A stretch of DNA of 64,000 nt from Woeseiaceae bacterium. Lineage in GTDB: Bacteria > Pseudomonadota > Gammaproteobacteria > Steroidobacterales > Woeseiaceae. Location: positions 1 to 64,000 of the forward strand of contig JAJFKT010000026.1 of the NCBI GenBank assembly GCA_021773075.1, in the 5' to 3' direction. Under the pieces are notes generated by a model, which was not told the DNA's origin, did no database searches, and was given only the letters and a program-made list of their open reading frames with translations. The position numbers and the translations under genes were made by a program. The first letter of the stretch is position 1; every line of letters begins with the position of its first letter. Shown here piece after piece: positions 18,989-22,930 of the stretch.

Positions 18989-19999
18989 ATGGCAAAAGAA
19001 ATATATTTAACCGGTATAACGACGACGGGCACACCGCATATTGGTAATTACGTTGGTGCGATTCGGCCGAGTATTGCCGCGAGCATGGATGCTGACAAGA
19101 AGAATTACTATTTTTTGGCTGACTATCATGCGCTGGCAAAAAACGAGGACCCGGACAAGATCAGCCAATCGACGCTGGAAATTGCAGCGGCATGGCTCGC
19201 ATTGGGAATGGACACGGCTAATTCGGTGTTTTACCGGCAGTCGGATATCCCCGAAATTCCGGAGTTGACCTGGATACTGACAAGTATGACGGCAAAGGGC
19301 CTCATGAACCGCGCCCATTCGTACAAAGCAGCCGTACAAGCAAATATCGATGGCGACAACAAAGACCCGGACAAGGGCATTACGATGGCTTTGTATAGTT
19401 ATCCGGTTTTGATGGCGGCCGATATTTTAATGTTTAAGGCGACCAAGGTCCCTGTTGGTCGTGACCAAAAACAGCACGTTGAAATGGCGCGAGATATTGC
19501 GCAGCGCTTTAATCATCACTACGGTGATGTATTGGTGCTTCCCGAACCACTAATCGATGATCACACGGCCGTGCTGGCCGGCCTCGATGGACGCAAGATG
19601 TCGAAGAGCTACAACAACACAATTCCATTGTTCGCGCCCGAGAAACAGTTTCGCAAACTGATAATGAAGATCAAGACAAACAGCCTCGAGCCGGGTGAGC
19701 CGAAAGATATCGAAGGTAGCACTCTGTTCGATATCTACAAGGCTTTCGCGACGGCGGATGAAACGGCGGCGGTTGCGGAACAGTACGCAGAAGGTATCGC
19801 GTGGGGTGCAATGAAGCAGCAATTATTTGAATACATTAATGATCACATTGGGCCGGCACGAGCGGAGTACGATCGCTTGATGAGCGACCCATCAATTGTC
19901 GAAGAGGAATTGCAAAAAGGCGCGCTGCGCGCTCGAGAGCTTGCATCGCCATACATGGATCAAATTCGCAGCGCTATCGGGATCCGTCGGCTTGGTTAA
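18989..19999 (+). CDS. trpS: Tryptophanyl-tRNA synthetase
   Basis: A 336-residue class Ic synthetase (E. coli 334). The HIGH-like motif is TGTPHIGN (His17) and the KMSKS loop is GRKMSKSYNN (Lys203-Ser207). Other conserved blocks, such as YPVLMAADILMFKATKVPVGRDQKQHVE, are intact. It charges tRNA-Trp in the cytoplasm. The gene follows ggt by three bases and its stop overlaps the probable start of the cupin lipoprotein. Confidence 0.97.
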   Translation: MAKEIYLTGITTTGTPHIGNYVGAIRPSIAASMDADKKNYYFLADYHALAKNEDPDKISQSTLEIAAAWLALGMDTANSVFYRQSDIPEIPELTWILTSMTAKGLMNRAHSYKAAVQANIDGDNKDPDKGITMALYSYPVLMAADILMFKATKVPVGRDQKQHVEMARDIAQRFNHHYGDVLVLPEPLIDDHTAVLAGLDGRKMSKSYNNTIPLFAPEKQFRKLIMKIKTNSLEPGEPKDIEGSTLFDIYKAFATADETAAVAEQYAEGIAWGAMKQQLFEYINDHIGPARAEYDRLMSDPSIVEEELQKGALRARELASPYMDQIRSAIGIRRLG

Positions 20000-20381
20000 G
20001 CTTTGCAGGTATCTCCGAAGGGTGGTCGGACTAATTGCGGCTTCAATGACTTTTGCAGCGTGTGCACAGACGCAAGTTTTGCCGGATCCGCTTGCGGCGG
20101 GCTGGAACAGTAAGCCAGTGTGCGAACATTTGTATGAAGACTCGGTACAGCGCGCGCTGCGGTGCACATTTCCGCCTGGCGTGGGACACGAACGCCATTT
20201 CCATGTCGCACATTTCGGATACGTTTTAGCGGCTGGTCGAATGCGGATCACGGATGAGAGCGGCGTGCGAGAGGTCGACCTCGCCCAGGGCGCAAGCGTT
20301 TCAAGCCAAGGGACGAGATGGCACGAAGTTTTAAACGTCGGAGAAACTACGGTCGTTTATCTCATAGTGGAACGAAAGTAA
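19992..20381 (+). CDS. Cupin-fold lipoprotein
   Basis: From TTG 19992, overlapping the trpS stop, the frame encodes 129 residues. It starts with a lipoprotein signal (basic LCRYLRR, hydrophobic core, lipobox TFAAC) and continues as a small cupin (residues about 45-125) with HERHFHVAHFGYVLAAGRMRI and a second half WHEVLNVGETTVVYLIVE. The open frame extends further back into trpS (to 19896), but the signal sequence argues for a start near 19992 or GTG 20025. The ligand or reaction is unknown. The histidines in HERHFHVAH could bind a metal, although the classical cupin pattern is not complete. Confidence 0.65.
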   Translation: MVKLCRYLRRVVGLIAASMTFAACAQTQVLPDPLAAGWNSKPVCEHLYEDSVQRALRCTFPPGVGHERHFHVAHFGYVLAAGRMRITDESGVREVDLAQGASVSSQGTRWHEVLNVGETTVVYLIVERK

Positions 20382-20460
20382 CGGTGATAGCCGCTTTCTG
20401 ATTGGTCAGGCAATATTCAGAAGAGGTCGAAATTTTCCCAACGTAATATTCGGCGCAGGG

Positions 20461-20526
20461 ATGCGGCCGATACGCCAATGACTTCTCCACGACCCACAGT
20501 CGAATTCATTGGCGTATCGGCCGCAT
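20461..20526. repeat. Hairpin A, perfect 21-bp stem, of the paired-loop module
   Basis: Positions 20461-20481 are an exact reverse complement of 20506-20526. The 24-base loop (20482-20505) contains TCTCCACGACCCACAGTC (20484-20501), which is the exact reverse complement of the loop of the next hairpin. It lies between two convergent genes (cupin lipoprotein and the S9 peptidase). No U-run follows the stem. Confidence 0.9.
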
Positions 20527-20573
20527 TTCGTCAGTCGGTCACGTATTTCAATTCAAGGTCGCCGCACTGAACA

Positions 20574-20647
20574 GGTGTCCATCCGGGAAAGCCAAGGCTG
20601 TTGACTGTGGGTCGTGGAGACAGCGTTGGCTTTCCCGGATGGACACC
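20574..20647. repeat. Hairpin B, perfect 22-bp stem, of the paired-loop module
   Basis: Positions 20574-20595 are an exact reverse complement of 20626-20647, and after one mismatch the stem continues for four more pairs (GCTG/CAGC). The 20-base loop holds GACTGTGGGTCGTGGAGA (20603-20620), fully complementary to 18 bases of the hairpin A loop. The stem sequence is unrelated to that of hairpin A. The stretch 20382-20460 before the pair and 20648-20726 after it show no further gene. Confidence 0.9.
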
Positions 20648-20726
20648 GGATTAAGAACGCTACTTCGATATAGACGGTTTGTGACTGACCGATCAGAGGA
20701 TGAATATCACAAATAATGCCTGCTAC

Positions 20727-22832
20727 CTACTCGCGAATATTTTCCAATCCCATGAAGAACGCATAATTCAAAGCCGTATCCTCGATTCGTCGAAACCGAC
20801 CCGTTTTGCCGCTATGCCCCGCTTCCATATCTGTCTTCAGCAGGAGCAGATTATCGCTCGTATTGAACTGGCGAAGTTTGGCAACCCACTTGGCGGGCTC
20901 CCAATACTGTACTTGCGAATCGTGCAAACCGGTCGTTACTAGTATGTTCGGATAAGCAGCTGTGCGCACGTTGTCATACGGCGAATACGACAGCATGTAG
21001 TCGTAGAACTCTTTCTTGTTCGGGTCACCCCATTCATCCCATTCGCCGGATGTTAGCGGGATATCTTCGTCCAACATTGTTGTGACTACATCGACGAACG
21101 GAACAGCCGCAAGGACGCCGTTGTAGAGTTCCGGCGCCATATTGAGAACTGCACCCATCAGCAAACCACCAGCGCTACCGCCATAGGCGTAAAGATGATC
21201 GGGAGATGTGTAACCGTCTTCGATCAGGAATTTTGAAACATCAACAAAGTCGGTGAAGGTATTTTTCTTGTTTAGTTGCCGTCCGTCGTAGTACCAGTCA
21301 CGTCCCATTTCGGACCCACCGCGAATATGTGCGATCGCGTAGATAAAGCCGCGATCCAGCAAGCTCAGGCGATCAGGACTAAAATAAGGCGTGGTGCTGT
21401 AGCCGTAAGATCCGTAGGCATACTGCAGCAAGGAATTACTGCCGTCTTGCTGCATTCCTTTGCGGTAGACCATTGATACAGGAACTTCTGTTTCGTCACG
21501 AACCGTTACAAACAATCGTTTTGTTTCGTAGTTTGTTCGGTCAAAATCGCCAACAACTTCGCTTTCATCAATTAATGTGTGGGAGTTGTTCGTCAGCGCA
21601 TAGTCGTAGGTCGATTCTGGAGTGGTCAGCGACTCATATGTGTATCGAAATACGCCAGCCTCAAACTCCGCGTTGCCATTCCCATATGCTGTGTAAACTT
21701 CTTCATCAAATGCGATACGTTTGACATCTCCACTGCGCCGGTCCAGCACCTCCATTTGCTTCAGGCCTCTCTCCAGCATTTCCAAAACGATGTAGTCCTT
21801 GAACACGGTTATGTCCTGTATGAGGACATCAGCTCGATGCGGTACGAGTTCTCTCCAGGACGTTTTGTCGGTTGCATCGAGAGGCGCTTCCATGAGCCTG
21901 AAATTCTCAGCGTTATCGTTGGTAAGAACGTAAAAGCGGTCGCCACCATCCTCAACGTGATAAAGGTGGTTTTCCTCGCGCGGCAGAAAGACCTCAGGCT
22001 CGTCTTGTGGCGATCCCGCAGAAACATAACGAACCTCGTCGTACAAGGTATGCGAACTCACAATGTAGAAAAATTCAGATGAAAGAGATTTTTCTACCGA
22101 TAGATAGTTTGTATCGTCACTCTCTTCATAGACCAGCGCGTCGTTGTCAGACTCCAGTTGGTGTCGATAGATCTGATAGGAGCGTAAGGTTTCCGGGTGT
22201 TGCTTGGCGTAGAGAATCGTCTGGCTATCGTTCGCCCAGAAAAAATTAGCCGTCGTGTTTCTTACCACATCATCGACAAGTTCGCCTGTCTCGAGGTCCA
22301 GGAAGAAAATGTCGTAGAAACGTCGTCCAGCTGCGTCCACGCCATAGGCAGCGATACGGTCGTCCGGGCTGACGGAAACATTGCGCACCGAGAAATAATC
22401 TGCGTCGCCGGCCAGCTTATTGACGTCGAGAAGTATCTCCTCGTCCGCATCGAGCGAACCTCGTTTGCGAGCATAGATCTTATATTCATTGCCTTCTTCA
22501 TAGCGGGTGTAGTAATAGTAGTTACCGCGACGATACGGTACTGACGCGTCGTCCTGTTTGATTCGAGCCGTCATTTCCTGGACGAGAACGCCGTGAAGCC
22601 CTTTGAACGGGCTCAATTCAGATTCTGTGAACGTGTTTTCCGCTTCGAGATAGGCGATAACGTCTGGGTTCTCGCGCTCTCGCAACCAATAGTAGTCGTC
22701 CACGCGTTTGCTATCGTGCAGTTCCAGCGTCACGGGTCTTATTTCTGCGACCGGCGCCTGTGGACCCGGGTCTTCTGTGCTGCAGCTAGTCATTAAGACG
22801 AGCAGGAATGTGATTTGAAGTAGAGGTTTCAT
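20727..22832 (-). CDS. Oligopeptidase B-like S9A peptidase, lipoprotein
   Basis: A 701-residue prolyl oligopeptidase-family enzyme with an N-terminal beta-propeller and a C-terminal alpha/beta hydrolase domain. The catalytic triad is Ser553 (YGGSAGG), Asp638 (GLHDSQV) and His673 (EAGHSG). The C-terminal half resembles oligopeptidase B (PtrB), which cuts peptides after basic residues. Unlike cytoplasmic PtrB it begins with a lipoprotein signal (ITFLLVLMTSC), so it probably works in the periplasm or on the outer membrane. ATG 22832 has an AGGAAA site; an upstream in-frame start at 22847 was rejected. Confidence 0.9.
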   Translation of the reverse strand: MKPLLQITFLLVLMTSCSTEDPGPQAPVAEIRPVTLELHDSKRVDDYYWLRERENPDVIAYLEAENTFTESELSPFKGLHGVLVQEMTARIKQDDASVPYRRGNYYYYTRYEEGNEYKIYARKRGSLDADEEILLDVNKLAGDADYFSVRNVSVSPDDRIAAYGVDAAGRRFYDIFFLDLETGELVDDVVRNTTANFFWANDSQTILYAKQHPETLRSYQIYRHQLESDNDALVYEESDDTNYLSVEKSLSSEFFYIVSSHTLYDEVRYVSAGSPQDEPEVFLPREENHLYHVEDGGDRFYVLTNDNAENFRLMEAPLDATDKTSWRELVPHRADVLIQDITVFKDYIVLEMLERGLKQMEVLDRRSGDVKRIAFDEEVYTAYGNGNAEFEAGVFRYTYESLTTPESTYDYALTNNSHTLIDESEVVGDFDRTNYETKRLFVTVRDETEVPVSMVYRKGMQQDGSNSLLQYAYGSYGYSTTPYFSPDRLSLLDRGFIYAIAHIRGGSEMGRDWYYDGRQLNKKNTFTDFVDVSKFLIEDGYTSPDHLYAYGGSAGGLLMGAVLNMAPELYNGVLAAVPFVDVVTTMLDEDIPLTSGEWDEWGDPNKKEFYDYMLSYSPYDNVRTAAYPNILVTTGLHDSQVQYWEPAKWVAKLRQFNTSDNLLLLKTDMEAGHSGKTGRFRRIEDTALNYAFFMGLENIRE

Positions 22833-22930
22833 GATATTTCCTAGCACGAACTCGGGTCGACTCAGTATAGTTACCGGATCGTGTAATCGCTATAGCCGGG
22901 TCAGATACTGCATCGCTGAGGTTTGTTTTC

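Follow-up and report, generated by a model that had tools for sequence, protein, structure and literature searches.

Hairpin-forming inverted repeats are known from several bacterial settings. Inverted repeats able to extrude as cruciforms are concentrated behind stop codons in E. coli, and many of them lie within intrinsic terminators (PMC6060812). GU is given as the commonest intermediate in Bacillus cereus terminators (PMC5381666). Replication template switching is described in PMC8794818 as making and maintaining perfect hairpins, and the origin and upkeep of long perfect hairpins amid sequence change is there called an open question; template switching is further described as yielding arm homogenisation together with spacer inversion (PMC8604942). 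How do such hairpins fare when many of them share one loop? We describe a hairpin family from Woeseiaceae, bacteria that are common in sea-floor sediment and whose order is reported to be abundant in marine sediment (PMC7082342), in which the loop is nearly constant and the stem changes while staying paired.

The hairpin pair and the repeat around it

The window, that is, the whole stretch of 64,000 nucleotides that was analysed, holds two long hairpins, A and B (Table 1). An earlier note on this DNA had placed them between convergent genes and had described their 18-nt loops as exactly complementary, and all of this is present in the sequence: the loop 18-mer lies at 20484-20501 on the minus strand and again at 20603-20620 on the plus strand, and the flanking cupin ORF and prolyl oligopeptidase gene end at 20381 and 20727. 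The note was also right that the loop match is beyond chance. The window has no further copy within three mismatches, where 0.06 are expected. At 96% complementarity the arms of A and B reach 25 and 28 nt, and the interval 20440-20670 folds at -123.6 kcal/mol (-72.9 +/- 4.3 for shuffles). No Rfam family reached its gathering score in the window, and ARAGORN reported nothing there.

Table 1. Coordinates of the hairpin module, the surrounding element and the neighbouring genes in the window
Feature	Position	Strand	Remark
MITE-like element, ~327 bp	20384..20710		lies between stop codons of convergent genes; homologous copies elsewhere
Left terminal inverted repeat, degenerate	20384..20412	+	21/29 identical to right repeat
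Right terminal inverted repeat	20682..20710	-	from alignment with left repeat
Hairpin A	20461..20526	-	perfect 21-bp stem, 20461-20481/20506-20526, exact reverse complements
Conserved 16-nt loop of A	20486..20501	-	GACTGTGGGTCGTGGA on minus strand
Hairpin B	20574..20647	+	perfect 22-bp core stem, 20574-20595/20626-20647, exact reverse complements
Conserved 16-nt loop of B	20603..20618	+	GACTGTGGGTCGTGGA
Left neighbour, ORF with cupin domain (PF07883)	19896..20381	+	true start uncertain
Right neighbour, prolyl oligopeptidase (PF02897, PF00326)	20727..22847	-	domain matches

Rather than standing alone as a built pair, the two hairpins make up the central part of a dispersed MITE-like repeat, of which a few related Woeseiaceae genomes contain dozens of copies. 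In an alignment of 28 loci the common sequence reaches past the hairpins; the copies are non-coding, and both stem A and stem B recur, in altered form, in copies elsewhere. The agreement between the terminal repeats of the window copy was equalled by 5 of 2000 mononucleotide shuffles. In a survey of terminal repeats that covered 28 of 30 pairs and left out the last two, eight pairs have clear terminal inverted repeats of 22-38 nt (element spans 285-374 bp), and 19, the window copy included, have a terminal-repeat score of 11 or less. Several of the repeats resemble TGTGATAGTCGTCACCTGAT, and one copy in genome G061 (L148) has a different repeat sequence. A derivative on contig C33 of genome G014 keeps the repeats and has lost most of the hairpin core. 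G061 also carries a pair downstream of pgk, in the gap before the converging gene; in several relatives this gap is just a short spacer. The remaining one of the 28 pairs lies at the end of another G014 contig (C57, locus L046), where the sequence folds back around it with an inverted-repeat score of 117.5, either through misassembly or as a genuine inverted duplication.

The repeat pattern of the element occurs in 6 of 73 genomes of the genus. CTAG-like bases were seen by eye at some ends only, and no target-site duplication is certain; no transposase or autonomous partner was recognised beside the repeat ends in eight loci read in part. With an E-value cut-off of 1e-150, the window's oligopeptidase has a match in 26 of the 73 genomes. 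Nine of these loci were read and hold nothing like the element at the oligopeptidase end, but the ORFs that follow the oligopeptidase look different in them, so an empty site could not be shown. The earlier note had named the remnant of a known transposon as one finding that would overturn its reading: the module does lie within a MITE-like repeat, though not one of a known family.

A family restricted to one genus

The hairpin family is genus-specific. The source genome (G000; 4.09 Mb, 37 contigs) has nine matches to the loop 18-mer at up to three mismatches: two form the window pair, two form a second pair (G000:C37:91022-91157), four belong to solo hairpins whose stems differ, and the last (L007), stemless and inside an apparent gene, looks like chance. 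The second pair is homologous to the window module throughout, with paired stem changes and a loop spacing of 118 nt (119 nt in the window pair). The comparison of hairpin pairs, a check that the earlier note had suggested for related genomes, covers 30 pairs.

A covariance model (R1) built from 24 hairpins, with a 22-bp stem and a 16-nt loop, has 130 matches in 9 of 73 genomes of the genus under Infernal's stricter filters: 48 in G061, 25 in G017, 22 in G080, 16 in G014 and 10 in the source genome, with small sets in G010 (4), G008 (2), G016 (2) and G002 (1). Across 196 genomes from 60 genera of the order, the same filters gave matches in five, all from this genus, and the 18-mer at up to one mismatch is found in 4 of 60 genomes, the source included, again all of one genus. 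Searched exactly against the genome_contigs collection, the 18-mer occurs in 49 stretches, and the named motif-bearing records are metagenome assemblies of Woeseiaceae or Gammaproteobacteria bacterium. Eight stretches in other or unclear taxa were considered as family members and set aside, being stemless and looking like chance. A distant blastn search of plasmid and phage collections with 20380-20715 found no match, nor did a search of viral contigs for the exact 18-mer with G or T in the middle.

From 95 loci examined we listed 122 hairpins; L175, L188 and L203 yielded none, so G008, with its two model matches, enters no later count. The filter for this list demands likeness to one loop consensus, and the loop conservation reported below is therefore partly due to selection of the sequences. 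Hairpin-bearing genomes cluster in gene trees for clpB (though four changes are required, 8 rows) and pgk (three required, 9 rows), and show no clustering in a lysS tree (11 of 30 rows).

Solo hairpins behind stop codons

Solo hairpins, which lie outside the MITE-like element, sit at gene ends. When pairing is counted strictly, the stem is 20-31 bp long in 20 of 23, the other three being interrupted nearer the loop, and 20 of the 22 that were measured start between -12 and +21 nt from a stop codon; the exceptions are L184, 50 nt from its stop, and L008, which is 13 nt away by another gene caller. Several sites are shared between species: the end of clpB in six genomes, that of xseB with a convergent amidohydrolase gene in four, that of pgk in three as well as the G061 pair, and those of tldD, a MarR-like regulator (scoring just under the Pfam cut-off) and a crp-like gene in two each. 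The names clpB, xseB, pgk, tldD, crp-like and amidohydrolase are our own presumptive assignments, recognised from the sequences. Most solos look vertically inherited. Many members of the genus have no hairpin at these gene ends, and any function is thus not essential.

Behind clpB, G000 and G016 have a second, inverted hairpin. These hairpins (L211 and L210) have inverted loops and unrelated stems, about 150 nt apart in G000, a layout that resembles the pairs yet lies outside the MITE-like element. At L015, L200 and L183 we considered whether the far arm had been copied from the neighbouring gene end and rejected this, the strict stem stopping at or before the stop codon; a stop codon lies clearly inside the hairpin only at pgk of G014.

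Other hairpins were seen in passing. Near the end of pgk in G060, G009, G024 and G034 (L058, L060, L066 and L079) the hairpins have another loop in common, which follows the pattern CAAAGCGAGTTTGCG..CACTGTC.GAGCGAC or resembles it more loosely. In the window, a long hairpin at 536-619 (32-nt arms, 81% complementary) has the loop GGCTCGCTTCGCTGCGCTTTA, which recurs at two more places in the source genome with partly different outer stems, one of them truncated where its contig stops; some relatives have hairpins with loops like it close to pgk and lysS, and the GGCTCGCTTCGCTGCGCTTTA loops possibly form a second conserved-loop family. The window also has a perfect 20-bp hairpin with a 3-nt loop at 146-188, by eye just before an apparent ORF start at 204, and arms of 27 nt, 93% complementary and 44 nt apart, at 697-794.

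The gene context of the family is skewed. Solos lie between convergent genes in 11 cases and tandem genes in 9 (two unclassified), and MITE places in 24 and 10 (13 unclassified), so that 0 of 54 classified places is divergent; the 60 adjacent gene pairs of the window, called by the same program, comprise 5 convergent, 50 tandem and 5 divergent, a control that is a single window set against solos from about ten sites, in counts that omit hairpins with less than 150 nt of flank and depend on a caller that missed some genes, the cupin ORF of the window among them. This bias is consistent with hairpins that end or block transcripts, or with elements that are tolerated only at gene ends. A T-run (TTTT within 12 nt of the foot) is present in 1 of 46 flanks of the 23 solos; because the strict criterion breaks off the stems of L005, L197 and L198 at an internal mismatch, this count uses lenient ends. 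With T-runs nearly absent, the hairpins are not standard intrinsic terminators.

Stems that change and stay paired

In a 24-sequence alignment 96.4% of stem cells pair, and two-sided changes occur in 20 of 22 stem pairs (16.1 for shuffles). The alignment reaches a covariation score of 0.94, where shuffles give 0.23. Stems at shared sites resemble one another more than stems at different sites do (0.436 versus 0.294; 0 of 20000 permutations). Twenty-two comparisons at shared sites, partly non-independent and including L184, which is perhaps not orthologous to the other clpB hairpins, gave 224 two-sided Watson-Crick changes and 225 unchanged cells, with one-sided cells numbering six G.T and six mismatches, and one other cell.

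Counted over stems scoring 15 or more, positions 6-24 of the solos hold 437 cells (424 Watson-Crick, 4 G.T, 3 A.C and 6 other), and the stems of MITE hairpins hold 1570 Watson-Crick, 26 G.T, 8 A.C and 37 other cells. That G.T outnumbers A.C on the GACTG strand of the MITE hairpins hints at selection on a single strand, RNA or ssDNA, though the copies, being related, are not independent observations. Recopying of arms by template switching would predict such a preponderance of two-sided over one-sided change (PMC8794818), and the stems vary yet stay paired probably because each is recopied from its own other half.

A near-constant loop in either orientation

The loop consensus is G[AC]CTGTGnnnCGTG[GA]A. 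Across the 122 hairpins positions 2 and 15 covary (A/G in 71, C/A in 47, other combinations in 4), and the middle triplet is GGT in 77, TGT in 13, TCC in 10, TTT in 9, GCT in 8 and something else in 5. Species differ in the state of positions 2/15 at the clpB site, at the xseB site and at that of the MarR-like gene, which indicates that the two positions switch together.

At tldD, the MarR-like gene, pgk and xseB, the loop does not face the same way relative to the gene in all species. Behind clpB, four hairpins that are alike in position and stem share one orientation, and two that are unlike them in stem or position (L142 and L184) have the opposite one. Within the MITE-like copies, L178 has one loop inverted relative to the otherwise matching L176. 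Rearranged forms also occur: L191 shows the arm-loop-arm arrangement that a deletion between same-way loops would leave, and L013, L026 and L035 are mixed-arm forms of the same kind. Inversion of the spacer between the loops, which the earlier note had envisaged, was not seen among loop matches read without a stem requirement; the hairpin model would miss such a form.

In a survey of 23 solos and the second clpB hairpin of G000 (L142, with its 14-bp stem, was left out), stems that are otherwise unlike have G at -17 in 23 of 24 cases and T at -7 in 21 of 24, with a weaker bias at -14 and -28 (17 of 24 each). Positions -7, -17 and -28 are about one helical turn apart, a spacing that suggests a protein bound on one face of the folded arm. 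Cells that are not Watson-Crick concentrate at -4/-5, where 14-16 of 24 are paired.

Identity with REP/RAYT elements was considered and rejected, foot tags being rare and association with Y1 transposases absent from the four Y1 loci read. With lenient ends GTAG and CGTC stand at the foot of 3 and 1 of the 23 solos, and with strict ends of 3 and 0 (about 0.9 expected per tag). Genes for Y1 transposases occur in 48 of 73 genomes, G010 and G008 having none, and no link to the family was seen; all four Y1 loci read are without hairpins.

What the hairpins may be

Our best explanation, to which we give about an even chance, is that the window holds an old non-autonomous MITE-like copy carrying head-to-head, loop-recognised 3'-end hairpins with arms kept by template switching. 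It starts from the observed family, its loop motif and location bias, the paired divergence of its stems, the loop flips and the lack of covariation between A and B. To these it would add template switching, a 3'-end role and a loop-reading factor. Replication would occasionally switch template on a hairpin, one arm being recopied from the other so that the arms stay perfect, and the same event could at times invert the loop. At transcript 3' ends the hairpins may act as orientation-independent terminators or 3'-end blocks. A putative factor would read the loop together with some positions of the stem (-7, -17), and its reading would keep these from changing as the remainder of the stem drifts. 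Two solo-type hairpins would have been taken up head to head by a MITE-like element.

A more specific version, which we hold only tentatively and regard as unlikely, is that a genus-specific protein of the host or of a mobile element recognises folded hairpins, irrespective of strand, by the near-constant 16-nt loop and some stem positions a helical turn apart, the remaining stem being constantly rewritten by template switching, the solos serving as gene-end marks and the pairs having been captured.

The hairpins may instead act purely at the RNA level, as terminators or decay blocks at 3' ends under ordinary compensatory selection, with the loop as a protein or RNA site. Their position behind stop codons, the lack of divergent places among the 54 classified, the strong fold, the preference for G.T over A.C in MITE hairpins (26 versus 8) and the common loop orientation of the four most similar clpB hairpins agree with this, but loop orientation differs both at tandem sites (tldD and the MarR-like gene) and at convergent ones (pgk and xseB), G.T and A.C are about equally rare in the solos despite the prominence of GU in B. 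cereus terminators (PMC5381666), and the T-run is missing. We judge a purely RNA-level role to be improbable.

Less credible still are single-stranded DNA or cruciform sites, recognised by their structure, for a putative recombinase or transposase, loosely like attC or REP/RAYT, with the solos as old landings; by analogy such sites could explain loops that differ in orientation, stems that are almost wholly Watson-Crick with exceptions gathered at -4/-5, constant positions (-7, -17, more weakly -28) set about a helical turn apart, and two inverted copies within a mobile-looking element. Against such landings, most solos occupy fixed sites and seem to have been inherited vertically, and Y1 genes do not track the family. 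We think this reading doubtful.

Do the two loops of a pair bind each other? The proposal is that they pair in RNA or between extruded cruciforms and that their complementarity is selected. The loops are exactly complementary in the window and identical as motifs in 15 of 30 pairs, 29 of the 30 are head to head, a G061 pair (L059/L148) has the same two departures from the window loop in both loops, and another pair (L155) has the same rare variant in both. Shuffling within genomes, however, gives 15.3 identical pairs (P 0.65), and the loops of the remaining 15 pairs differ at 1-5 positions; exact complementarity is therefore best taken as one motif that occurs twice, inverted, and not as evidence that the loops pair. 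The same loop also tips solos, which have a second hairpin only behind clpB in G000 and G016 (in flanks of limited length), and L178 has both loops the same way round. We consider selected loop pairing very unlikely. The earlier note had held that the two hairpins were built or kept as a unit and had pointed to covariation between the loops as a check: the hairpins do travel together, but upkeep of their complementarity as a pairing is not supported, no covariation appears in the 30 pairs, and the loops vary independently.

An assembly artefact of draft metagenome genomes, to which many copies at contig ends (in G061) and the long fold-back at the L046 contig end might point, is hardly believable given the same structures in independent genomes and on contigs of up to 921 kb, and hairpins with different stems at the same gene ends; the mixed-arm forms and the flipped loop may yet be of that kind.

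Comparison with known systems

We found no description of conserved-loop, variable-stem hairpins in Woeseiaceae in the full-text literature, a body from which subscription papers are mostly absent. If a protein does read the loop, these hairpins would belong to a gene-end recognition system of which the literature searched gave no description. The family is in any event a useful case for hairpin evolution, its loop near-constant and its stem free to change yet paired: one loop is found on dozens of hairpins, several of them at the same gene ends across species, which allows a direct count of how often stems were rewritten and loops inverted.

Each known system shares part of this picture. Like intrinsic terminators, the hairpins lie just behind stops and often between convergent genes, but their stems are mostly 20-31 bp, the 16-nt loop is conserved, T-runs are missing and G.U is scarce. 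Like MITEs, the element is short, dispersed and intergenic and has terminal inverted repeats in some copies; it differs in its two strong internal hairpins, whose loop motif is common to solo hairpins at fixed gene ends, and in that an autonomous partner was not found and no target duplication is certain. REP/BIME elements with RAYT, as presented in PMC3733652, are likewise palindromic, mostly downstream of genes and often in inverted pairs, whereas here the constant part is the loop, GTAG/CGTC tags are few and no Y1 link was seen. Closest in the behaviour of the arms are the hairpins attributed to template switching, for which PMC8794818 and PMC8604942 report perfect arms, compensatory change of several bases at once and spacer inversion; what sets the present case apart is a whole family with one near-constant loop, traceable at shared gene ends across species.
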